Source of the DNA: a virus
Strand: one strand, 5' to 3'
Virus record (IMG/VR): IMGVR_UViG_3300035034_001119
Span: 1 to 43,432 of that record
DNA: 43,432 nt
Part shown: in pieces, positions 586-43,432 of the stretch
Numbering within the stretch: the stretch's first letter is position 1
Layout of the letters: the number at the start of each line of letters is the position of its first letter
Position numbers and translations under genes: made by a program
The notes under the pieces: generated by a model
Databases searched by the model: none
Seen by the model: only the letters and a program-made list of their open reading frames with translations
Told to the model about the DNA's origin: nothing

Positions 586-618
586 TGCGTGGTTTCCTTT
601 GCTTAATTTGTTGTTTTA

Positions 619-5221: not shown

Positions 5222-5560
5222 TTAATCCTCGATCCTGACATCGCCATGAAATCGAACATTGTAATAATCAGTCATTGAATCGATATCATCGTAGTTGTAT
5301 TGATCAACAATTTTTTTAAGTTCATCACGCATTTGATCATTCATTGTTGTGCGTCGTGCGAATCCGGTATTTGAAATTCTGATTGCCATTGATTGGCCCA
5401 TTGAATATCGTTCGATGCGTACGCTTATTTTTACGCCTTTCATTTCTGAATAAAACTCTTTAATTTCTTTACGGACCAGCTTTGCAATTTCTGCAATGTC
5501 CATATCTTTAGTTTCAGCATATTTGCTGCCGATTGTGTGATAGTTGATTGTGTTTGTCAT
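5222..5560 (-). CDS. LPD29-like domain protein, 112 aa
   Basis: The arrangement of a helix (AEIAKLVRKEIKEFYSE) followed by GVKISVRIERYSMGQSMAIR resembles LPD29, a domain found alone or in large polyvalent proteins of phages and mobile elements. Its biochemical role is not established. It is the first gene after promoter P3, with leader GAAAGAAGCAACCACATG. Assignment rests on pattern memory, so moderate confidence. Confidence 0.6.
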   Translation of the reverse strand: MTNTINYHTIGSKYAETKDMDIAEIAKLVRKEIKEFYSEMKGVKISVRIERYSMGQSMAIRISNTGFARRTTMNDQMRDELKKIVDQYNYDDIDSMTDYYNVRFHGDVRIED

Positions 5561-5596
5561 GTGGTTGCTTCTTTCGTGGTTGATTTGTATATATAC

Positions 5597-5630: not shown

Positions 5631-5915
5631 TTATTTAACTAATTCTGCATATATTTTCTGTACTGGATCACCAATCTTTGTAAAGTGCTGACCGCCTGAA
5701 ATTGATAGCATCACGCCATTTTCTGATTCTGAAAATTCATCAGCTCGGTTATATGCGTATTCAAACATGCTTTCAATTTCTGCTGCATGATCATTAGATA
5801 CGATCAATTCATCACCGATCAGATCACTTGTAATTGTAATCATTGATCCGGCAACTGTTATTGTTTTGCTAACTGCATCACGTACGTGCAGCACATCTTG
5901 CTTCAAGTGGCTCAT
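5631..5915 (-). CDS. Hypothetical protein, 94 aa
   Basis: Unrecognised small soluble protein. ATG at 5915 overlaps the upstream stop by one base (TAATG). Composition is acidic with a helix around HAAEIESMFEYAYNRADEF and a short Gly/Ser turn (LSISGGQHF). It is the second gene from promoter P4. The stop is a few bases upstream of promoter P3. Confidence 0.68.
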   Translation of the reverse strand: MSHLKQDVLHVRDAVSKTITVAGSMITITSDLIGDELIVSNDHAAEIESMFEYAYNRADEFSESENGVMLSISGGQHFTKIGDPVQKIYAELVK

Positions 5916-6181
5916 TATAGAACCGCCTGATACTGTTTGACGATGCCAGTTGCAAGATGATTGATGTAATTTGTGATATCAGTATTATTGAAATCTAAGA
6001 TTGTTAAAACTTGCTTTATTTGTTTTCGCATTTGTGGTTCTGATTTAGTAACTTCAACTAAATCTTCAATGAATTCGTTATATTCGTAAATGTGAACTGA
6101 ATCATTCATATCTACAATGAATGTTTCTTGCAGATCGATTCCTTTTTCTTCTAGTAGTGTTGTGATGTAATTCTTGAACAT
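5915..6181 (-). CDS. Hypothetical protein, 88 aa
   Basis: First gene of the leftward block, just after promoter P4. The product is acidic and mostly helical (KSEPQMRKQIKQVLTIL; YINHLATGIVKQYQAVL). Not recognised. As the gene nearest the divergent control region it could be an early regulator, which is inference from position only. Confidence 0.7.
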   Translation of the reverse strand: MFKNYITTLLEEKGIDLQETFIVDMNDSVHIYEYNEFIEDLVEVTKSEPQMRKQIKQVLTILDFNNTDITNYINHLATGIVKQYQAVL

Positions 6182-6214
6182 TTGTGGTTGCTTTCGTTGA
6201 TTTGTTATACATAT

Positions 6215-6256
6215 ATAATATCAAAGCTGTTCCGTTATGTCAACGCTGTTTGCTTA
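6215..6256 (-). promoter_or_regulatory. Early promoter P4 with tandem conserved elements
   Basis: Minus strand TTGACA (6243-6238), 17-base spacer TAACGGAACAGCTTTGA, TATTAT (6220-6215). An upstream second element TAAGCAAACAGCG lies at 6256-6244, again 19 bp away, as at P2. This is the first promoter of the leftward block. Confidence 0.85.
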
Positions 6257-6323: not shown

Positions 6324-6332
6324 TGCTATAAT
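6324..6332 (+). promoter_or_regulatory. Extended -10 promoter of the large structured RNA
   Basis: TGC followed by TATAAT (6327-6332) forms an extended -10 box; no good -35 is seen. Predicted start near G6339, which is exactly the first base of the first stem (GGCTGAGG). Confidence 0.65.
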
Positions 6333-6338
6333 CAAGAC

Positions 6339-6856
6339 GGCTGAGGGTTTGCGTGGTTGCACCTCAGCCAATCTAGTTATTGAAATAACCATGCAATTCG
6401 TTTATGATTAATGCACGGCAGTTATACGTCAGAACTATAATTGCCTGATGAAAATTCAATCACAAGTGAGGGTATCTCTTGTATTTTTCTGCATGGCACG
6501 ATATAATTATTATATTCTGACGTATAGCTAAATCTCGATGAAACACCCACATTTGCAGGGTGTTTTTTCATTTAAGCGTTGGGAGCCGATCACCGGTAAA
6601 GGGGCGCTATAAAGAACCTGGATCAATTCGTTGATCAATTAACAACTTGAATGCATTTTGCTGATAAAAGCGAAAACGAAATATTTGGCACAACTAGCGG
6701 CGATGTGGAAACCCGAAGATCATTGTGATCAGGCAAATCATTAAATTCTAGAATAATGAACCATCACCAAATACTAGGAGTAATTTTTATCAGCGATATG
6801 CATTCAATAGTTGAGCACAAGTGATATGTTGGCTAGTCGTACGGCCCGTTGTACGA
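6339..6856 (+). ncRNA. Large structured non-coding RNA candidate (3' end uncertain, to ~7104)
   Basis: This part of the 970-bp divergent gap has no sizeable reading frame but dense base pairing. Helices seen: 6339-6346/6362-6369; 6376-6380/6385-6389 with loop TGAA; 6420-6434/6515-6529 (15 bp, one G-U) continuing past one bulge with 6436-6441/6509-6514; 6621-6626/6631-6636 closed by TTCG; 6643-6669/6785-6813 (about 26 bp, one mismatch, one 2-base bulge) enclosing 6682-6688/6767-6773, 6702-6705/6762-6765, 6718-6722/6726-6730 and 6738-6743/6754-6759; and 6837-6842/6851-6856. The size, phage context and ornate branching recall GOLLD and ROOL RNAs, but I could not match a family by eye. More hairpins at 7021-7055 and 7071-7104 may belong to it. 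Confidence 0.7.
6541..6568 (+). terminator. Terminator-like hairpin inside the structured region
   Basis: AAACACCC (6541-6548) pairs with GGGTGTTT (6558-6565), followed by a T run to 6568. It could end a ~230-nt transcript from the 6324 promoter, or be an internal hairpin of a longer RNA. Confidence 0.55.
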
Positions 6857-6909
6857 TCTCTGCACTGCATGGCATCATGTGTACATTAAAAAATAGGTAT
6901 ACTTAAATT

Positions 6910-7002
6910 ATGGAACACACTCATATTTGGATTGTTAAACAATACCAGTATCATCAAACGAAAAAATGTAGATATTGCAAAATCATGTTGATCATAGGAT
7001 AA
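6910..7002 (+). CDS. Possible leaderless 30-aa CxxC peptide
   Basis: ATG at 6910 lies six bases after TATACT (6898-6903), the same spacing as other leaderless genes here. The peptide begins MEHTHIWIVKQY and contains KCRYCK, a possible half zinc finger, with TAA at 7000-7002. There is no ribosome site. It may be a real small gene or a chance frame within the structured RNA region. Confidence 0.4.
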   Translation: MEHTHIWIVKQYQYHQTKKCRYCKIMLIIG

Positions 7003-7113
7003 GGAACCCAATATAAAGCACTCAGACCGCATGAATCAAATCTATGCAGGTAGAGCGCGCATCATGAGGTACCCTCGCAGCTAACGCATAAAAAAGTTGA
7101 GGGTTATTTGTCG

Positions 7114-7122
7114 TGGTAGAAT
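7114..7122 (+). promoter_or_regulatory. Extended -10 promoter upstream of the parB-like gene
   Basis: TGG followed by TAGAAT (7117-7122), start near 7129, giving a short leader with GAAAGG (7140-7145) before ATG 7152. The stretch 7003-7113 holds hairpins 7021-7055 and 7071-7104 and no gene. Confidence 0.5.
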
Positions 7123-7151
7123 AAAAACATAATCAAATTGAAAGGCCACGC

Positions 7152-7676
7152 ATGAGCAACAAACTCAAAATAGAATATAGAAAACTGAGTGAATTAACTG
7201 AATGGGCGTCGAATCCGCGATCAATCAACCGTGATGCATTTGATAGATTAAAAAAACAAATCACACGGCTTGGCATGTACAAACCATTGTTAGTTGATCA
7301 AAACAATACAATTCTCGGTGGTAACATGCGTTATAAAGCGCTTGTTGATCTTAAAACAACTGAAGTTGCCGTGATTGTGCGTGAATGCAAAGACGACACA
7401 GAACGGATTGAAATTGCATTATCAGACAACGATCGTGCAGGTTATTACAATGAAACTGAATTGGCTGAGCTCGTAGAATTGAACGGCATCGATGGCGAAT
7501 TATATTCAATCGATCTAACTGAATCAAAAACAATTGAAGAAATCGTGAACGCTGAGCCAACACCACTCAAAGACGACAAAGAAATCGATGCAGAAAACTT
7601 ACTGAATGATAAAACTGTTGAATGCCCAAAATGCCATTTTGAGTTCGATCCAAAATCAAACGACATAGAGCAATAA
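7152..7676 (+). CDS. ParB/Srx-fold protein with C-terminal zinc-ribbon motif, 174 aa
   Basis: The N-terminal ~95 residues match the ParB N-terminal (ParB/Srx nuclease-like) fold: LSELTEWASNPRSI, GMYKPLLVDQNNTILGG and NMRYKALVDL. Near the C-terminus VECPKCHFEFDP carries CxxC, a small zinc-ribbon-like tip. ParB-like proteins next to DNA methyltransferases are common in phages and are thought to help target or regulate modification. The gene ends one base before the methyltransferase ATG, so the two are co-expressed. The ATG is preceded by GAAAGG. Confidence 0.85.
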   Translation: MSNKLKIEYRKLSELTEWASNPRSINRDAFDRLKKQITRLGMYKPLLVDQNNTILGGNMRYKALVDLKTTEVAVIVRECKDDTERIEIALSDNDRAGYYNETELAELVELNGIDGELYSIDLTESKTIEEIVNAEPTPLKDDKEIDAENLLNDKTVECPKCHFEFDPKSNDIEQ

Positions 7677-14034: not shown

Positions 14035-14913
14035 ATGGCAACCACTGCAACAGAACTCAGACGTGAATTGCTGATCGGCATTCGTGATTATGAAGATCAA
14101 ATGGAAGCGTTAATTGCGACTTATAACAGCGATTTAGAACGTGCATCATTATTCAATGCAAACAATTTTGATAGATTTGAAATAGTTGCAGCAGGAATCA
14201 TTGCAGCATTTTTAGTTGATTTTGCTCGAATATCAGTATCAGCAAACACAACAATTGCAACTCAATATGCAACATACGTCATGAATTCAACTGGCGTGCG
14301 TTTGAGCCGTGCCGGTGCTGTTCAATCGTATTCTGCATTGAATCGGCTATCAATAAGTGTGCCACAAGCCGTTTCTGATAGCTTTTTAACACGCCGAAAC
14401 ATATATGACGGCAGAACATTCACTGGTAGATTAAAAACACTGCAAGCAGGCTCAGAACGAATCGTGCGTGGATTAATCAGTGAAGGTGTTGCATCAGGGC
14501 GATCAGTCAATGATGTTGCAAGATCAATTCAACATTATATTGATCCATCATCACAAGCTGGGCGCCGTTTCACGCGTGGCAATGGCATCAACTACACAGC
14601 CATTCAAAAAGGCAAACGATTGCCAAAAGGTTCAATCAGGTATAACGCAGTCAGAATTGCACGATCAGAAATTATGCGAACATATGATCTTGCAAGCAAC
14701 GCATTTTACAAAGATAAACCATATGCACGAGGTTGGACGTGGAATCTATCAAATACGCATCGTGGCTATGATGGTTGTGATATTTTGTCGCAGAATTCGC
14801 CGCATGATAAATTGCCCGCAAGACCACACCCACAATGCACATGTGATCCGCGTCCAGTCGTCATAACCGTTGCTGATTTAAGAAATCTTGTTAATTCTGG
14901 CTTGATAGCATAA
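14035..14913 (+). CDS. MuF-like minor head protein, 292 aa
   Basis: Phage head morphogenesis (SPP1 gp7/Mu F) family. The diagnostic C-terminal part is clear: RIARSEIMRTYDLASN, then GWTWNLSNTHRG, DGCD and HPQCTCDPRPV, matching the conserved HPxCxC ending. The N-terminal half is helical. Such proteins bind the portal and are packaged in few copies. It follows the portal gene by five bases. Its stop codon is part of a promoter -10 (TAAACT). Confidence 0.88.
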   Translation: MATTATELRRELLIGIRDYEDQMEALIATYNSDLERASLFNANNFDRFEIVAAGIIAAFLVDFARISVSANTTIATQYATYVMNSTGVRLSRAGAVQSYSALNRLSISVPQAVSDSFLTRRNIYDGRTFTGRLKTLQAGSERIVRGLISEGVASGRSVNDVARSIQHYIDPSSQAGRRFTRGNGINYTAIQKGKRLPKGSIRYNAVRIARSEIMRTYDLASNAFYKDKPYARGWTWNLSNTHRGYDGCDILSQNSPHDKLPARPHPQCTCDPRPVVITVADLRNLVNSGLIA

Positions 14914-21106: not shown

Positions 21107-21553
21107 ATGAATCCAAGTAATGAGAATTCAAACAACAATCAATCTCAGCCAACAAGTGCTGCTGATTTCCGCAATGCGGCTCAGCAACGCAATGAAGGCG
21201 AAATAGTTACACTTGAGTCTGGCAAATCTATGAAGATTGCTCGGCCAAGTGTTTCTGCACTTATGAAAACAGGTCAGTTGCCTAGCGAATTAGCGAATGC
21301 AGCAGTCAAAGTGCAATCAGGTGCCGTGACAACGCCAACTGATATTGTGAAGTTCACAGAATACCAAGAAAAATTGGTTATTCTATCTGCAAAAAATCCA
21401 AAAGTTGTGCATGAAAATGCTAACTACGATAATGGCGAAATTAACATCGGCGATCTGTCAGACGATGAACAGACCGAAATCATGATCTATGTGAATGGGG
21501 GACTAGATGCCCTAGCCAAATTTCGTCAAGAACGACAACGGCTATCTGCTTGA
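21107..21553 (+). CDS. Tail assembly chaperone, upstream frame (gpG-like), 148 aa
   Basis: I start at ATG 21107; its leader TTGGGAGAAAACCAAGCG holds the ribosome site, and an earlier in-frame start lies inside it. N-terminal disordered Asn/Ser stretch, then GKSMKIARPSVSALMKTGQLP typical of this family. The frame ends with TGA at 21551. Before that lies a likely +1 frameshift site that would append the 21525-21869 segment. Such chaperones coat the tape measure during tail assembly. Confidence 0.8.
   Translation: MNPSNENSNNNQSQPTSAADFRNAAQQRNEGEIVTLESGKSMKIARPSVSALMKTGQLPSELANAAVKVQSGAVTTPTDIVKFTEYQEKLVILSAKNPKVVHENANYDNGEINIGDLSDDEQTEIMIYVNGGLDALAKFRQERQRLSA
21521..21527 (+). other. Candidate +1 programmed frameshift site (TTT CGT C)
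   Basis: In the gpG frame the ribosome reads AAA TTT CGT. The tRNA-Phe on TTT can re-pair with TTC one base on, and translation continues in the frame that is open only after the TAG at 21513-21515. The heptamer TTTCGTC equals the core of the influenza PA-X +1 site. The usable overlap window is only 21516-21550. Confidence 0.6.
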
Positions 21554-21869
21554 TCAAATCTGTCGTAGATACGGCGGAAAACCAAGCGACTATTTAGATT
21601 TAGATGAATATGAATCATATCAATTTGATGCAGGTTTAGCCTTTAGATATGGCACAAGTGAGCGAGACGATATTAACGAGCGACTTTCGCACATCTTGAA
21701 CAGCATCAATGCAGTGATCCGAACTCTCGGAAACAAGAATGCAAAAAACATTCCTTATGATCGTATTGTTGAATTCAGCAAAAAAGATTCAAAATCCAAA
21801 GGCAACATAGTCGATGGTGGCGTTACAAATATGTCGGTTCTCGAAATCGTTGAAGCGCCCAAGTCGTGA
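21525..21869 (+). CDS. Tail assembly chaperone, shifted frame (gpT-like), 114 codons
   Basis: An open frame with no usable ATG of its own near its start, reading NGYLLDQICRRYGGKPSDYL and then DEYESYQFDAGLAFRYG, the typical second-frame chaperone pattern. It is expected as a gpG-T fusion of about 253 residues by a +1 shift near 21521. It ends at TGA 21867-21869, 18 bases before the tape measure. Confidence 0.75.
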   Translation, partial: VKNDNGYLLDQICRRYGGKPSDYLDLDEYESYQFDAGLAFRYGTSERDDINERLSHILNSINAVIRTLGNKNAKNIPYDRIVEFSKKDSKSKGNIVDGGVTNMSVLEIVEAPKS

Positions 21870-21872
21870 AAG

Positions 21873-21881
21873 TGATAGACT
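21873..21881 (+). promoter_or_regulatory. Extended -10 promoter, leaderless tape measure transcript
   Basis: TGA followed by TAGACT (21876-21881), then six bases, then ATG 21888; no ribosome site. Confidence 0.5.
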
Positions 21882-21887
21882 AGAAGC

Positions 21888-24800
21888 ATGGCAGGCGGAA
21901 TATTTGTAGGTAGCGTATACGCAACAATGGAACTTCGAACCGGTGGATTCGCAGGTGATATTGCTCGTGCCCAATCAACAATGCGGGCATTTGATAAAAC
22001 TGCACTCGGTTCTAGCCGTGCAACTTCTCAATGGGCTCAGAACGCAAATCAGGGGTTCAGGAGCGTTGCAGATGGAATTGCAGGCGTAACTAAAGCATTT
22101 GCAGCATTCGCCATTACAGGCGGTATTGGGCTTGCATCATTCGTCAAAACTGCATCAGGTTTGCAGACAACATCAAAACAATTTGAAGCATTAATTGGCA
22201 ACGCTGATGATGCGAATAAATTGTTTGGTGAACTTTATAATTACACGCTTGGAAAACCTATTGCATTTCCAACTGCTGCAAAAGCATCAGCAACATTACT
22301 CGGTTATGGACGAACTGCAGGCCAAGTTACTGAAGATATGAAAACGCTCAGCAAATTTTCTATTGTGAACGGCGCCGATCTGCAAGCATTGGCGCTTGTA
22401 TATGGTCAGGTTACATCTCGTGGTGCATTATTCGGTCAAGATGCATTGCAGTTGATCAACAACAAAATACCATTGACAAATATTCTTGCGAGAAAACTTG
22501 GCGTTTCAATTGAAGAAGCAGCCGGCAAAATAAATGGTGGTCAAATTTCAGCAGAACAATTTACTGCTGCAATGGACGATTACGGCAAATCACTTGATAT
22601 TGGTGCATTCACAAACACATTCGCAAACCGTATGATTTCATTGCAGGGTTCAATTAGATCATTCGGTAACACGATTCTCGGTTTGAGCATTGATCCAATA
22701 AAAGGGCTCGTGATTGAATCAGGCGGTTTGTTTGATCGTATATCTGGCGGATTAGATGGTTTGAGTCCAAAATTAAAAGCATTGGCACCTCAAGTCAAAG
22801 CAGCAGTTACATTTCTAATTGATAATGGAAAAACTGTCATTGCTGTAATTGCCGGCATTGGTGCAGCATTTGTTGCAGCGAAAATTGGTCAGGCGATCAC
22901 TGGAATAGCTATTGCAATGCAAACTGCAACTAAAGCAACAACATTTGCAATCGCATTAACAGCAATTGCAGCAACATTGGCGTTTCTTGAAGTCAGATTT
23001 GGATTAGTTAGCAAGACAATTGAAATCGTAAAAAATGCATTTTCATCAACAGTCGGATTTATACAAGAAAATAAATTTGCAGTTGCGGCATTCGCAGTTG
23101 CATTGATCGCATTAACATCATCATTAATTGCCGGTGCTGCTGCTAGTTTGGCAATGACGGTCCAGATCAAAGCAATGTACGCATGGGACAAAGTTATAAT
23201 CGTTGCTAAAAAGGGTGCTGCTGCTGCACAGTGGCTTTTAAACGCCGCAATGACAGCAAGTCCAATCGGATTGATAATCGCAGGTATAGCGGCACTTGTA
23301 GGCGTATTTGCATTATTATGGAAAAACAATGAGGGATTTCGTAATTTCTTCATCAAAATGTGGGCAGATATTCAAGCGGCTGTTAAAACTGCAGGCGAAT
23401 TCATTGAACGCAACTTTTTATCTGCTGTTAGATCAATCAAAGAAGCATTTGATTCTGCAAAAACGGCTGTAACTGATTTCATAACAGCAGGAATCGACAA
23501 AGCAACGGCGGCATTTGAAACTGCTAAACAAACGATCATTGATTATCGTGAATGGATTAAAAACACTGCAATTGTTCTTGGCGTGATATTCGGTCCATTA
23601 ATGCTAAAAATTGCAACAGAAGCCGTTATATCTTGGGCAAAAATAGCTGCATCAGCAGTTGTGAATGGTGCAAAATCTGCTGCTGCATGGATCACATCGA
23701 ACGCACAAGCAGGTGCATCGGCTGTTAAAAACGGAATCATAATGACTGCACAAGCAATAAAAACTGGTGCCGTAAACACTATTGAAGCAGTTAGAAGCGG
23801 TGCTATTTGGTTGAAAAATGCTGCAATCGCTGCACCTGGTTGGATCGCTGCACATGCAACAATGGCTGCATCAGCAATAAAAACTGGCGTTGTGAACACT
23901 GCTCAAGCGATTAAATCAGGTGCAATTTGGGCTGCAAATGGTGCAACCGCTGCTGCAACTTGGCTCGTGCAATTTGGTTTAATGATCGCAAAAGCGATTG
24001 CAGCAGGTGCGACAATGGCGGCACAAGCAGCTGCATCAGGTTATGCATGGCTTATTGCTGGACTGAGAATTGTTGCAATGAACGCAATTATGATTACTGT
24101 TCGTGCTGCTACTCTTGCATGGACTGCTGCACAATGGTTGTTGAACGTCGCATTGAATGCAAACCCAATCGGAATAATCATCGGATTGATCGTGTTATTA
24201 GTCGCAGGATTCATTGCATTATGGCAAAACTCAGAGACGTTTAGAAATATTGTTACTGGTGCATTTGAAAAAGTCCAAGCTGCTGCAACATTCGCATTTG
24301 AATGGATTAAATCAAACTGGCCGTTATTATTGGCAATATTGACTGGACCTGTTGGGCTTGCTGTTCTTGCAATATATAAAAATAGAGATAGCATCATGAA
24401 TGCATTTAGTGCCGCGTTGAATTTCGTCAAAGGCATTTGGAACTCAATAACAGGATTTTTTGGCGGTATTGGATCATCAATCAGCGGAATATTCAGCAAT
24501 GTCAAAAATGCTATTGTAAATAAATTTAGTGAAGCTGTTTCATTCGTGCGTGGCATACCTGGCAAGATTCTCGGTGCATTAGGCAACGGCGGTTCAATGC
24601 TGTACAACTACGGCAAAAACATGATTCAGGGCTTGTTAGATGGTGCAGGATCGCTATTGTCAACGATTGGTTCATTCTTCTTAGACAAAATACCTGGTTG
24701 GATTCAAGGGCCATTCAAAAAAGCACTTGGAATCAGCTCGCCATCAAAAGTTTTTGCCGGTTACGGTATGAACATTATGGAAGGTGCAATTATTGGAATT

Positions 24801-30928: not shown

Positions 30929-32395
30929 ATGGGCAAAGTACCAAAACCACGAATAGTCTGGAAAGGCGCACACCCGACCAACTTTACAAAAGGTAGGCCG
31001 AATGGACGTCGTAACGGTCAATTGACGAAGCATCACATTGTTGGATCAGAAGATTCAGCGATTGCAGTGTTTCAAAATCCAAGCAGAAATGGATCAGCAC
31101 ATTTTGTTGTTGGTGATCGTGATATCACTCAAATGGTTAGCATAGATGATACTGCATGGACTGATGGTGTTTGGGCTTCTAATCTTCGAACAATCACAAT
31201 TGAGCATGAGGGTGGTTGGCAATATATTGGCGGCAAATACGGTCCATACACAGAGGGAATGCAAAACAATGCTGCTGCATTGATTGCGTGGTTGCGTGAT
31301 CAGGGATTTGTAACACACTTTAAAGCACACCGAGAAATCAATCCTGGCACTGTTTGTTTTGGTGATCTACCTGCACAACGCATTTGGAATAAAGCAACTG
31401 CAATAATTGCGAAATACAACAAGCCAACACCGCCACCTGCACAAGCTCAATGGCAAAAAAATTTCACAACCAAAAATGCACCGCCATATGTCTATGCACA
31501 AAAAGATGGAGTGCGAATTTATAACATTGCTGATCTTGGCAATAATCATGACACAAGACGATGGGGAATCAATCAAAGATTTGATATTGGTGCAACTACA
31601 ACAATTGATGGAAAAACTTATTACATTACAAAATCAAGTGTTGATTCTGGCGCTGCATCAGGTTTGCTTAAAGGCGAAGTTGATACAACAAAATATGTTG
31701 CACCACCGCCACCGATTACGCTTGTCAAAGTTGATAAAATAACCGGCAAAGAATTCTCAGTGCTTGGCAATACGCAATTGGTGAAAATTCCAAGCGGCGA
31801 ACGATCAAAGCAACCAGGTAAAATTGATTTCACATCAGGCGAAGTTATTGAATCAATCGCTGAGTTGCGACATTACAGCAACGGCAAAAAATTCTATCGC
31901 ACAGCATATTCAATCAGCAAAAATATTGAACATGGCTTTGTATCAAGTTCATTAGCTGAAAAAACACCGCCAGTCGTCCCAGATAAGCCGCCAGTGCGTG
32001 AAATGCCTGATTGGGTGTATGACATGCAAGAAGAACCATCACGGCCAATGTATGTGCTTAGGTCAACGCCGCTGATCGATCTTGAGAATGGCCACCCGTA
32101 TTTGGATCCAAAAACCAATAAAGAGGTTTGGTTTCAAGCAGGTGATATTGTGAAAGACATTGTTGCTCAAGTAGATATTTTTGAAAACACATACCGATTG
32201 ACTAAATTCGCATTCACAAAAACCAAAGGTGGCGAATACGCCATGTTTGCAAATGGCATTGATTCAGATGATTTGTCAGTTGATCCAAAATCAGTGCCAG
32301 AAGATACACCAGGCAATCCATCAACAGACGATAATATTAATTGGATCGTCAAAGCATTAAAAGCTATATTAGCATTCTTTAAAATAACCGTTTAG
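30929..32395 (+). CDS. Endolysin, N-acetylmuramoyl-L-alanine amidase (PGRP/Amidase_2), 488 aa
   Basis: Cuts the amide bond between MurNAc and the stem peptide. The amidase domain (about residues 30-160) has the expected zinc ligands: H35/H36 in KHHIVGS, H134 in KAHREI and C143 in GTVCFGDLP, plus IEHEGGW. Proline-rich linkers (KPTPPPAQAQ, APPPPIT, PPVVPDKPPV) separate two or three repeated beta-rich C-terminal modules, probably wall-binding. No signal peptide, so it depends on a holin. The holin gene follows by eight bases. Confidence 0.88.
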   Translation: MGKVPKPRIVWKGAHPTNFTKGRPNGRRNGQLTKHHIVGSEDSAIAVFQNPSRNGSAHFVVGDRDITQMVSIDDTAWTDGVWASNLRTITIEHEGGWQYIGGKYGPYTEGMQNNAAALIAWLRDQGFVTHFKAHREINPGTVCFGDLPAQRIWNKATAIIAKYNKPTPPPAQAQWQKNFTTKNAPPYVYAQKDGVRIYNIADLGNNHDTRRWGINQRFDIGATTTIDGKTYYITKSSVDSGAASGLLKGEVDTTKYVAPPPPITLVKVDKITGKEFSVLGNTQLVKIPSGERSKQPGKIDFTSGEVIESIAELRHYSNGKKFYRTAYSISKNIEHGFVSSSLAEKTPPVVPDKPPVREMPDWVYDMQEEPSRPMYVLRSTPLIDLENGHPYLDPKTNKEVWFQAGDIVKDIVAQVDIFENTYRLTKFAFTKTKGGEYAMFANGIDSDDLSVDPKSVPEDTPGNPSTDDNINWIVKALKAILAFFKITV

Positions 32396-34830: not shown

Positions 34831-35103
34831 TTATACGTTTGCATTTGTTGCAGCGTATGAAGTTGATACAAGAACTACAATACCATATGCACCGAGAACA
34901 GCACCTAATGCGAGCATGACAACATTCATCTGTTGCAACCCTGTTGCGATTAAGTATGTTGATGAACCGCCACAACCGACAATTTTGCCAACTGTGAATG
35001 AAGTATTGAATGCAAGGTTAATCCATTTTAATGCTTGCGATTCTTTGATATTGTTTATTTTTTTAACCGACTTATTGCCAGTTTTTTGCGTGGTTTTTGC
35101 CAT
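34831..35103 (-). CDS. Membrane protein, 90 aa
   Basis: Basic N-terminus (AKTTQKTGNKSVKKINN) then two hydrophobic segments (FTVGKIVGCGGSSTYLIATG and MLALGAVLGAYGIVVLV). First gene after promoter P5, with AAAGGAGCC ribosome site. It precedes the secreted transglycosylase and may work with it at the envelope; it resembles small pilin-like or TrbC-like membrane proteins only in shape. Confidence 0.65.
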   Translation of the reverse strand: MAKTTQKTGNKSVKKINNIKESQALKWINLAFNTSFTVGKIVGCGGSSTYLIATGLQQMNVVMLALGAVLGAYGIVVLVSTSYAATNANV

Positions 35104-35159
35104 TTTAGGCTCCTTTGATTTATTTTTATTTCGCTATTTGTTTTGCTTAGCGTGATTAC

Positions 35160-35188
35160 ATACTATCAAAGCTGTTCCGTTTTGTCAA
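35160..35188 (-). promoter_or_regulatory. Early promoter P5 with conserved spacer
   Basis: Minus strand TTGACA (35188-35183), spacer AAACGGAACAGCTTTGA, TAGTAT (35165-35160). Drives the membrane protein and transglycosylase genes. It overlaps the 3' end of the upstream gene. Confidence 0.85.
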
Positions 35189-35507: not shown

Positions 35508-35821
35508 TTAATTAACCAATCATAAAGATCGCCAGAGTCTTTTAATTCCAACTTTTTGCCATTATTTTCAACAATATGCAGTTCTTTGCACTTTTTTCCA
35601 AAATCAGTTTCATACACAAACCATGAAATATTGTTGAATTTGTCGTTAAATTCAAGTTTCAATGCTTCTAGCGCCCATTGATTGAGTTTAGTTGTGAATA
35701 CAAAGCTGTTGTTGTTAATTTCGCCATCACCAATTGAATGAATTGAATCACCAGTTTTATCATCGATTTGCATTTGCACTTGGATCGAATCAATCAGCAA
35801 TATAAATGCTTCGCGTTTCAT
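35498..35821 (-). CDS. Hypothetical protein, 107 aa
   Basis: Acidic alpha/beta protein (AFILLIDSIQVQMQIDDK, then ISWFVYETDFGKKCKELHIV). Not recognised. Start overlaps the upstream stop by ATGA (35818-35821), so it is translationally coupled. Confidence 0.66.
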   Translation of the reverse strand: MKREAFILLIDSIQVQMQIDDKTGDSIHSIGDGEINNNSFVFTTKLNQWALEALKLEFNDKFNNISWFVYETDFGKKCKELHIVENNGKKLELKDSGDLYDWLIKCQ

Positions 35822-36243
35822 TCTGTTTCCATAAAATCATCAATGATGATCGTATCAGCTGTTTTTCCATGAATCGCTAACAATGATTGATCTGCACCGA
35901 GTTTTGCCGTATCAATTCCAACACTCATGTTTTGCAGCAATGCACGGTTTGCAAGAGGCAATGACTGAAATTTATCAGGATCAAATTTATATGCAGTTGC
36001 AATTTGTGCGATTGATCCAGCTACATTTGCCATAATTTTAGCAAAAGAATTAAACATTTTTCCAACACCTGATGCAACATTTTTCCATATATCTTTGAAT
36101 CGTTTAAAGAATATTCTGCGTTCACGATCAGTCATTGGTCTTGATATGCCAAGCAAATTAGCTGAATAAACCCACTTTAATGGATGATTCGATTGATACA
36201 AATTACGCAATTTTTCGACTTCTCTTTTTTGATACTTACGCAT
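35818..36243 (-). CDS. Hypothetical protein with amphipathic helices, 141 aa
   Basis: Basic N-terminus and a long Ala/Phe/Lys-rich helical centre (FKDIWKNVASGVGKMFNSFA, then IMANVAGSIAQIATAY) that could lie on a membrane. Ends acidic (IIIDDFMETE). The leader CGAAAGGCAACCACATG matches the recurrent start block of early genes. Not recognised. Confidence 0.65.
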   Translation of the reverse strand: MRKYQKREVEKLRNLYQSNHPLKWVYSANLLGISRPMTDRERRIFFKRFKDIWKNVASGVGKMFNSFAKIMANVAGSIAQIATAYKFDPDKFQSLPLANRALLQNMSVGIDTAKLGADQSLLAIHGKTADTIIIDDFMETE

Positions 36244-36261
36244 GTGGTTGCCTTTCGTTAT

Positions 36262-39984: not shown

Positions 39985-40257
39985 TTACCTTTTTAATTTC
40001 TTTAGTTTAAATTCGCCTTTGATTTCTCTAACTGAATAATGACCATCTTCAACAGGTGCAAAACCATTGTTGCCTAAAAATTCATCTTGCAACCATTGGT
40101 GTATGTTGCATTCAAACAAATTCGGCTGGCAACGCATCGTGTGCTTCATGCTGAAATCTGCCAATCTAATTTCTGCTTCATGATATTTATTAACACGTCC
40201 ACGATTTTCTAATTCTGTGATTAGTTGATCGTCTGTGAACTCTGTGATTTTAGTCAT
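39985..40257 (-). CDS. Hypothetical protein, 90 aa
   Basis: First gene after promoter P6. Start ATG 40257 preceded by ATAGGAGAAAACCACGC. Contains MRCQPNLFECNIHQW and ends strongly basic (KGEFKLKKLKR). Not recognised. Confidence 0.67.
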   Translation of the reverse strand: MTKITEFTDDQLITELENRGRVNKYHEAEIRLADFSMKHTMRCQPNLFECNIHQWLQDEFLGNNGFAPVEDGHYSVREIKGEFKLKKLKR

Positions 40258-40278
40258 GCGTGGTTTTCTCCTATATTT

Positions 40279-41638: not shown

Positions 41639-41879
41639 GTTTTCTCGCTTCTTTTAATTGATTCCTAGTTTCTGCAATCGTCCATACTGCATCATAAAGT
41701 GTGTATGCTTGGACGATTGCGAATGCTGCAAATAATATTGCAACGAAACTCCATTGATTATTATACGCAATGGCAATCACTGTCAAATGCAAGACCAGTA
41801 CAATGATTGATCCATCACGCACACGCCTCTGTTCAATGATCGTGTTCTGTAGCTCGCGTATTTCGTTAACGTCAGGCAT
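41631..41879 (-). CDS. Two-pass membrane protein, 82 aa
   Basis: Two hydrophobic segments (SIIVLVLHLTVIAIAY and SFVAILFAAFAIVQAY) between a charged N-terminal helix and a charged C-terminal helix. Starts within the end of the nuclease-FtsK gene (eight-base overlap). Because the fused FtsK motor lacks its usual membrane domain, this could be a separate membrane partner, which is speculation. Confidence 0.66.
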   Translation of the reverse strand: MPDVNEIRELQNTIIEQRRVRDGSIIVLVLHLTVIAIAYNNQWSFVAILFAAFAIVQAYTLYDAVWTIAETRNQLKEARKHD

Positions 41880-43432
41880 ACAAGCCCTGCAATCGTTTTA
41901 AGCTGCTTGCAGATGGATCAAGATACAACATGTCGCCTTTTCCAGTCAGTTTTTCAGCACCAGTTTCATCAAGAATTATTTTGCTGTTCACACCACTCGT
42001 TGCCATGAATGCAATCTTTGTGGGCACATTGGCTTTGATCAATCCAGTTACAACATCAGCACTTGGGCGCTGCGTTGCAATGATCAAGTGCATTCCAACT
42101 GCACGAGCTTTTTGAGCAATGCGAACAATTGAATTTTCTGCACTTGGCGGTGATGTTTCTTCAATCGTTTGTTTCAATGCATTTTTAGTCGCTTTTTGAG
42201 TCAATTTGCCGTTGCCCATTCTGATATGATTCATCAGATTATAATTAAATGCTTTCACGTCCATGCTTGCAGCACTTGGCGATATATCAGACATCATCAA
42301 ATCAGCGAACTCATCAACAACAATCACAATTTTAGACATTGGATCACCACGCTTTGCATTGTATTCATCAATAGTTCGGCAATTTCTGCGGCGCAATTGT
42401 GTATATCGTTTTTCCATTTCTTCAACCATTTCATCAAGCACATTACATGCAACATCAATTTTTGTGATGATTGGTTTCATTAAGTGTGGCAAATCTTCAA
42501 ATGATGCCAATTCAACTTGCTTTGGATCGATCAACACTAATTCTAATTCTTTAGCTGTATTTTGTGCAGACAATGCTTTCAATATTACGTTCAACATCAC
42601 TGATTTTCCTGATCCAGTTGCACCGGCAATTAACAGGTGTGGCATTTCAGACAAATCTTTATAGTGAACAGTGCCGTAAACGTCCATTCCAATAGGAATT
42701 TCCATCGTGCCAGTTTTGTAATGAATATCACTTAAATTAATTGTTGTGCGAACTTCATTCGGCACTTCAACACCAACTAATGATGTGCCGTAGATTGGCG
42801 CATCGATGCGTATACTTTTTGATTCAAGTGCTAATGCAACATCATCAGCCAATGACGCTATTTTCGACATACGTTGGCCCTTAGACGGTTTAAACGTGTA
42901 TTGCGTGATTGATGGTCCAACATGTGTATCTTCTGATTTGATTTGCACACCGAATTCAGCCAATTTAGCTTTGATTTTGCCCTCAGGTCCATATGCGTTG
43001 TCATTTGAATCATGTGCAGATGCAACGTAATTCTTTTCTGCATATGCAATCTGTTCTGTTTTGTGCTGCACTTCAGTTGGTGCATCGATGCCTGACACGC
43101 CCTGTCTAAACGCTTCAAATGATATTTGGCCATTAAACATGTCATGCGGATTCGGCAAAAATAGAAATTCTGGTAAATTCAGGTTGTTTGTTGCAGCGTT
43201 ATACAGTTTGTAGAATGTTGCATGATCGCTTGATTTGTCGAATTCCATTGAATACGGTTGCAGTTGTGGCGATCCATCACGGTTTTTTGTAACTTTACAT
43301 TCGTTATAAATGATGCGTGCAGGTGCTTGGCCGAACTTAAATTTAACTGTGTAATACAAAAACATTGCTTGAATGAATTTTGCAAAATCATCAACTTCGC
43401 CATCTGTATATCTGCTAACGAATTTGTGATCA
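41872..43432 (-). CDS. PD-(D/E)XK nuclease-FtsK fusion, C-terminal part (starts at 585)
   Basis: Continuation of the 672-residue protein beginning at 585. After the end of the nuclease domain comes a short linker and an FtsK/SpoIIIE-like beta region (QIKSEDTHVGPSITQYTFKP). The motor has Walker A GATGSGKS (residues 423-430), LVLIDPKQVEL, Walker B IVIVVDEFADL (521-531) and LIIATQRPSADVVTG. There is no membrane domain and no gamma DNA-reading domain; it stops after GDMLYLDP...RLQGLYA. About 45 extra residues lie between Walker B and RIAQKARA. Expected activity: ATP-driven movement on duplex DNA coupled to cleavage by the N-terminal nuclease. Confidence 0.92.
   Translation of the reverse strand, partial: DHKFVSRYTDGEVDDFAKFIQAMFLYYTVKFKFGQAPARIIYNECKVTKNRDGSPQLQPYSMEFDKSSDHATFYKLYNAATNNLNLPEFLFLPNPHDMFNGQISFEAFRQGVSGIDAPTEVQHKTEQIAYAEKNYVASAHDSNDNAYGPEGKIKAKLAEFGVQIKSEDTHVGPSITQYTFKPSKGQRMSKIASLADDVALALESKSIRIDAPIYGTSLVGVEVPNEVRTTINLSDIHYKTGTMEIPIGMDVYGTVHYKDLSEMPHLLIAGATGSGKSVMLNVILKALSAQNTAKELELVLIDPKQVELASFEDLPHLMKPIITKIDVACNVLDEMVEEMEKRYTQLRRRNCRTIDEYNAKRGDPMSKIVIVVDEFADLMMSDISPSAASMDVKAFNYNLMNHIRMGNGKLTQKATKNALKQTIEETSPPSAENSIVRIAQKARAVGMHLIIATQRPSADVVTGLIKANVPTKIAFMATSGVNSKIILDETGAEKLTGKGDMLYLDPSASSLKRLQGLYA
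43306..43432. repeat. Terminal direct repeat, copy 2 (contig circularity)
   Basis: Second copy of the 127-base end repeat. Joining position 43305 to position 1 restores one uninterrupted minus-strand gene (nuclease-FtsK fusion), which supports the circular join. Confidence 0.95.

Follow-up and report, generated by a model that had tools for sequence, protein, structure and literature searches.

A predicted phage antisense small RNA with a loop complementary to start codons, and a separable conserved element, in a divergent intergenic region

The window, by which we mean the whole 43,432-nucleotide stretch analyzed here, is a 43.4-kb IMG/VR phage record (IMGVR_UViG_3300035034_001119) that encodes RecT, an FtsK-family ATPase, a ParB-type protein, a C5 methylase, RusA, a large terminase, a portal and a tape measure protein. 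The record ends seem to split one minus-strand gene (1-585, 41872-43432): the ORF starting at 585 resembles the N-terminus of a 665-aa RecB-like/FtsK fusion in the relative L004 introduced below (L004 record 21416-23413), and the FtsK part lies at 41872-43365 in the window. The genome is probably circular or circularly permuted. A 970-bp region separates a leftward gene block (first gene 5915-6181, minus strand) from a rightward block that begins with parB (7152, plus strand). An initial annotation had described this region as a control region without a sizeable gene, and indeed there are no ORFs of at least 60 aa between 6181 and 7152; tRNA genes were not found in the window. The strong plus-strand pairing described there also held, in that 6330-7110 folds far below its shuffles (z -6.2), but the minus strand is strong as well (z -5.1). 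Since both strands score, folding energy by itself leaves the transcribed strand undecided. The helices that had been named, a 15 + 6 bp helix (6420-6434/6515-6529 plus an inner 6 bp), a 26-bp helix and a TTCG-capped stem, are all present.

However, the proposal that these helices belong to one ornate unit was not borne out, as folding strength differs from segment to segment: z is -5.1 for 6338-6572 (M1), -5.3 for the 26-bp-helix domain, -0.2 for M2, +1.1 for the M2-M3 gap and -1.5 for M3. Through its ParB protein we reached a syntenic relative, L004 (IMGVR_UViG_2032320007_000045; ParB 73%, terminase 77%), whose intergenic region matches that of the window in four blocks: 6183-6251 (a leftward promoter-leader), 6324-6572, 6812-6892 and ~7005-7132. 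The stretch at 6573-6811, which holds the 26-bp helix, has no counterpart in L004. When a 19-mer that is invariant in the third block was used as a search pattern, it led to a second genome, L104 (IMGVR_UViG_3300033067_000606), in which the third block is 92.5% identical and the fourth 75%. The M1 block is absent from L104, and no similarity to the window was found besides the third and fourth blocks; comparison with the window ORFs gave two short, marginal protein-level matches only (17 and 32 aa, E ~0.006), and the L104 terminase is of a different type (phrog_38). Since M1 is missing from L104 although the downstream part is there, the 970-bp region holds at least two elements that are independent of each other. 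Segment-wise folding agrees with this split, being strong for 6338-6572 and the 26-bp helix and near zero for the helix interior and the third block. The evidence for M1 therefore comes from two genomes (window and L004), and that for the downstream element, RNA2 (M2 + M3), from three (plus L104).

Wider searches added no further relatives. No homologue of the region was found by blastn against phage and plasmid records, where a weak Lak-phage match was judged an AT-rich chance match, and the RNA was not found in about 80 other viral loci that carry parB. Pattern searches of viral contigs for the M1 rod, its loops and its apical hairpin recovered L004 and otherwise gave chance matches inside genes (L012-L014, L021, L023 and L024), and scans of genome contigs returned zero matches.

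A single GOLLD/ROOL-like RNA, running from 6339 to ~7104 and forming a multimer, would account for the strong folding of the whole region, its phage origin and its conserved modules with variable linkers. Rfam returned no match to GOLLD, ROOL or other families, either at gathering or at E <= 10 (L104 gave zero matches at E <= 1). In addition, a conserved terminator-like hairpin at 6541-6568 interrupts the region, the 3' modules occur in L104 without M1, and the 26-bp helix was sought in both relatives and is absent from both. The multi-branch interior attributed to that helix also fails: the helix is there (domain z -5.3), but its interior, 6668-6787, folds like shuffled sequence (z -0.1; 84 of 200 shuffles fold as well). 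We thus consider a single molecule of the proposed 500-770 nt very unlikely. GOLLD and ROOL are large RNAs that form multimers, frequently close to tRNA islands (PMC12286853), and a homo-multimeric nanocage is one of their features. The present region resembles them in being a phage-encoded structured RNA and differs in having no Rfam match, no tRNA nearby and no contiguous large conserved unit (GOLLD is often >800 nt), its modules being separable in L104. The initial observation was partly confirmed, being real in large part although "one large ornate RNA" is unsupported, and its interpretation is partly supported: what stands is a predicted phage-encoded, structured, non-coding RNA starting at ~6339, outside Rfam, with a homologue that carries compensatory changes. 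As for homologues, M1 has a relative in L004 and the downstream modules have relatives in L004 and L104, whereas the 26-bp helix has none.

Table. Features of the intergenic region and predicted pairing sites of M1 in the window.
Feature	Position	Strand	Remarks
Extended -10 promoter TGC-TATAAT of M1, predicted +1 ~6339	6324-6332	+	TGCTATAATCA kept in L004
M1, predicted ~230-nt phage sRNA	6339-6568	+	66-71% identical to L004; fold z -5.1; compensatory changes
P1, 5' stem-loop	6339-6369	+	8/8 pairs kept in window and L004, two by double change
P1 seed loop TTGCGTGGTTGC	6349-6360	+	identical in L004; complement concentrated at start codons; opening cost 3.2 kcal/mol
Segment A, switchable rod	6420-6434	+	covaries with B and with C (two U-A pairs become C-G in either case)
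Segment B, local hairpin with 6417-6426	6436-6445	+	9/10 pairs kept in L004, 2 compensatory
Apical hairpin ACAAG/CTTGT, conserved loop GTGAGGGTA	6462-6482	+	loop as conserved as the P1 seed loop
Segment C, 15-bp helix with A	6515-6529	+	14/15 pairs kept in L004, 2 compensatory
Intrinsic-terminator-like hairpin AAACACCC/GGGTGTTT + T6, predicted M1 3' end	6541-6568	+	stem and T-run identical in L004
Variable linker, TTCG hairpin + 26-bp helix (6643-6669/6785-6813)	6573-6825	+	homologue absent from L004 and L104
M2, 6-bp hairpin + invariant CTGCACTGCATGGCATCATG	6826-6893	+	92.5% to L104 (67 nt), 81% to L004 (62 nt)
M3, two hairpins (TATGC/GCAT, ACCCTC/GAGGGT), then TTATTT	7041-7111	+	75% to L104, ~70% to L004
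Possible extended -10 of rightward late operon (TGGTAGAAT), just upstream of parB	7117-7122	+	TGGTARAAT kept in L004
Predicted site, phrog_6004 gene 5915-6181 (GCAACCAC-AAATG)	6184-6191	-	dG -13.8; orthologue has site
Two predicted sites, gene 5222-5560	5561-5582	-	complement matches
Predicted site, RecB-like/FtsK fusion gene starting 585	587-594	-	dG -16.3; orthologue has site
Predicted site, gene 39985-40257	40258-40265	-	dG -15.4; orthologue -20.5
Predicted site, gene 35818-36243	36244-36251	-	dG -14.2; orthologue without site
Predicted site, codons 3-6 of gene 34831-35103	35085-35095	-	dG -17.2; orthologue site at +11
Predicted site, codons 2-4 of gene 14035-14913 (minor head-like)	14038-14045	+	dG -17.3; orthologue -21.2
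Predicted site, parB 7152-7676 (GGCCACGC-ATG)	7146-7151	+	dG -14.7; orthologue -16.6

Upstream of M1, the extended -10 element noted at first sight, TGCTATAAT (6324-6332), is present and puts the predicted start at ~6339, where the first stem begins; conservation in L004 does not extend to the -35 region. The strands of the P1 stem read GGCTGAGG/CCTCAGCC in the window and GGCAGGGG/CCCCTGCT in L004, where the automatic alignment was off by one base. Downstream lies a rod in which the 5' part of segment A can pair with B and the whole of A with C. At two positions A has changed from U to C, and the partner bases in B and in C alike have changed from A to G, which suggests that the pairings A:B and A:C are both maintained. 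The comparison has two sequences, and for the stored rod structure 129 of 500 column shuffles reach the same level; we therefore regard the covariation as suggestive and give more weight to the conserved register, since sliding the strands leaves 33-57% paired. Of the long helices, then, the 15-bp helix passes the comparison for compensatory change in L004, whereas the 26-bp helix has no homologue to compare. The apical loop GTGAGGGTA (6462-6482) is conserved as well as the seed loop described below and has no start-site complement; it is a possible protein site or host target. A 13-codon leader peptide of the same length in L004 (TTG 6479 to TGA 6518-6520) was considered and dropped, as a coding bias of the changes was absent by eye. 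The terminator-like hairpin at 6541-6568, overlooked by the initial annotation, would end the first transcript at ~230 nt; it was called by sequence inspection, and a simple scan missed it on the window plus strand. By sequence, M1 carries a putative promoter and a terminator-like hairpin, both kept in L004. Its structure is backed by compensatory change in P1 and the rod (two sequences), as would be expected of a trans-acting antisense sRNA.

The 12-base loop of P1, UUGCGUGGUUGC, is the same in both phages and is the top-scoring seed inside M1 in both genomes. We found that 8-mers of its complement, GCAACCACGCAA, occur on the transcribed strands of the window at seven places, every one at a start codon: 5582 and 5568 (same gene), 594, 14038, 40265, 36251 and 35095, the site at 594 having been flagged as outside purely since its gene crosses the record end. 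Further sites lie at 6184-6191, before the first leftward gene, and, as a shorter match, at parB (7146). L004 shows the same enrichment, though some matches there fall outside start sites. Fisher tests of the start-codon enrichment gave p values of 1e-8 (window) and 2e-14 (L004), both optimistic, as the k-mers overlap and so do not count as independent. An 8-mer is present at 5 of 40 start sites in the window and 6 of 52 in L004, as opposed to none of 601 start sites from 0.81 Mb of unrelated phage loci (Fisher p 1e-10). As many start sites can be matched by random 12-mers if these include the complement of a start codon or of a Shine-Dalgarno sequence, and 9 of 3000 shuffled loops do so in L004; 3 of 400 shuffled loops reach the observed duplex total. 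The pattern is orientation-specific, the opposite-strand (same-sense) loop sequence having been found at 0 start sites. The 12-base loop sequence is also present in sense orientation within the endolysin gene (31284-31295), probably by chance.

Of the 60 gene pairs that are reciprocal best matches, 9 in one phage and 8 in the other have a predicted duplex of <= -13 kcal/mol, and 6 have one in both (p 4e-5), a count inflated by the likeness of orthologous start sites through descent. Predicted sites in both phages belong to the phrog_6004 gene, the RecB-like/FtsK fusion, 39985-40257, 34831-35103, the minor-head-like gene at 14035, parB and, at lower strength, recT. A tyrosine-recombinase-like gene of L004 has a strong predicted site too, just upstream of its Shine-Dalgarno sequence. 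Offsets from the start codon range from -26 to +21, so that a site may lie upstream of the Shine-Dalgarno sequence, in the gap that separates it from the start codon, or within the first codons. Such varied offsets are expected of antisense sites, not of a fixed or copied leader motif. The complementarity is short (8-12 bp), part of the seed lies within a weak inner stem, and co-change of seed and target cannot show, because the window and L004 seeds are identical. Together, these results describe a conserved seed complementary to translation-initiation regions above chance, as in trans-acting antisense sRNAs.

The same duplicated leader, CGAAAGGCAACCACATG, is found at several leftward sites, which do not count as independent. 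There is also a leftward promoter-leader element (TTGACA, 17 nt, TATTAT with a TG extension) that recurs at 6183-6251, 2640-2700 and 35157-35188; there are three copies in the window and about four in L004, and it is probably a shared early promoter/operator. At start sites, the GCAACCAC motif could be no more than a leader that was duplicated, or a translation enhancer, with the M1 loop complementary to it by descent from the antisense of the leader at 6184-6191, with no regulation involved. The leader common to several leftward genes and the threefold repetition of the element are consistent with this. However, the sites at 40257, 35103, 14035, 585 and L004 8436 lie in contexts with no relation to one another and at offsets of their own, within codons or ahead of the Shine-Dalgarno sequence, and the loop is invariant though both sides of its stem changed, so we regard this explanation as quite improbable. 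A motif that is short and repeated could also mark sites in the DNA to which a phage protein binds, with a copy in the M1 locus that arose by chance or serves as an operator, but the motif is strictly sense-oriented at start sites (0 opposite) and placed relative to start codons, not promoters, which makes this extremely improbable.

M1 could also be a cis-acting leader of the rightward late operon, with transcription ending at the hairpin until a phage factor or the RNA itself allows read-through. In the lambda pR'-tR' late leader (a short phage 6S RNA) and the HK022 put RNA, a promoter, a short structured RNA and a terminator likewise precede late genes. The position and orientation of M1 between divergent blocks, its order of promoter, terminator-like hairpin and late genes, and a switchable rod strand suited to conformational control all resemble that arrangement. 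In contrast to those systems, Q or an antiterminator was not found in the window. Moreover, the late operon has a separate, conserved candidate extended -10 beside parB, the alternative pairings leave out the terminator strands, and a leader would not explain the seed complement at start codons genome-wide. We consider such a leader unlikely, though it and an antisense sRNA are not mutually exclusive.

The explanation that we favor, and hold to be probable on the comparative evidence, is that M1 is a discrete phage antisense sRNA that represses a set of the phage's own mRNAs. M1 (~230 nt, 6339-6568) would be transcribed from its own extended -10 promoter and end at its own terminator, its 5' stem-loop would present the seed UUGCGUGGUUGC, and its rod would exchange between two pairings. 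In the cell, the seed would anneal to GCAACCACGCA-type sites over or beside the start codons of several phage mRNAs, mostly of the leftward block, plus parB and the minor-head gene. By blocking ribosome loading, pairing would bring down the levels of a group of phage proteins at once, probably during lysogeny or as early expression gives way to late. Since the predicted sites overlap the footprint of the ribosome, repression is the effect to be expected.

RNA2 appears to be a separate mobile conserved element, its core (M2 + M3) being shared with the otherwise unrelated L104. The M2 hairpin has two compensatory pairs across three sequences, followed by 20 invariant bases; the M3 hairpins are kept in three sequences, with the outermost H1 pair unpaired in two. 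The D1 stem near 6575-6608 is tentatively placed as the 5' part of RNA2. RNA2 may be an RNA or else a DNA site, three sequences being too few for certainty. A start-site seed search in RNA2 gave no peak. M2 was rejected as coding sequence, its frames not being open upstream in L004, and the likenesses of M3 to a tRNA D-arm and of M2 to 16S rRNA (CTGCATGGC) were judged chance. Two further observations concern this element: GCATCATG occurs in both M2 (6872-6879) and M3 (7059-7066), and likewise in both in L004, and the L004 linker between them (L004:5654-5866) holds a 70-aa Cys-rich ORF (MQKCSYGKCKNEVKW...) ending within M3, where the window has ORFs of at most 30 aa.

The RNAs c4, sar and OOP are well-described phage antisense RNAs, each acting on one phage gene; c4, at ~77 nt, is smaller than M1. 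Antisense RNAs at ribosome binding sites (c4, sar) and trans-acting phage sRNAs (VpdS, PreS) are already known (PMC12197685). In P1/P7 c4, sequences exposed in loops pair with a phage mRNA in the area of its ribosome binding site (PMC12197685), as predicted for M1, but c4 has one known target, ant, compared with 8-9 predicted for M1, and the Rfam C4 antisense RNA covariance model did not match the region at gathering or relaxed threshold. The small antisense RNA sar of P22 blocks phage protein synthesis by pairing with its mRNA (PMC12197685); it is 68-69 nt and targets ant, whereas M1 is longer, structured and not encoded opposite its targets. VpdS (phage VP882) and PreS (lambda) act in trans, VpdS affecting phage and host mRNAs (PMC12197685), but they are ~50 and 88 nt and Hfq-dependent, with no sequence link to M1. 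By analogy, M1 would work like c4 or sar while falling outside described families, and its predicted target set is unusual.

A bolder reading, which we offer tentatively and think somewhat doubtful as a whole, joins two claims: that M1 is a master sRNA with one seed and a genome-wide regulon (a structural gene as well as early genes for recombination and partition), with a partner-swapping rod as its gate, and that RNA2 is a new mobile class of phage RNA, with a core >90% identical between phages sharing nothing else. The case is also a warning that low folding energy over a long intergenic stretch need not mean one ornate RNA. If RNA2 is what it seems, it would open a line of inquiry of its own, as a short RNA-like element that has passed between phages with no relation to each other and hardly changed. 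For M1, one sRNA would match start sites in eight or nine genes of its own phage, a pattern kept in a relative at ~30-80% protein identity. If true, this would amount to a post-transcriptional regulon built into the phage, one that predicts which genes respond.
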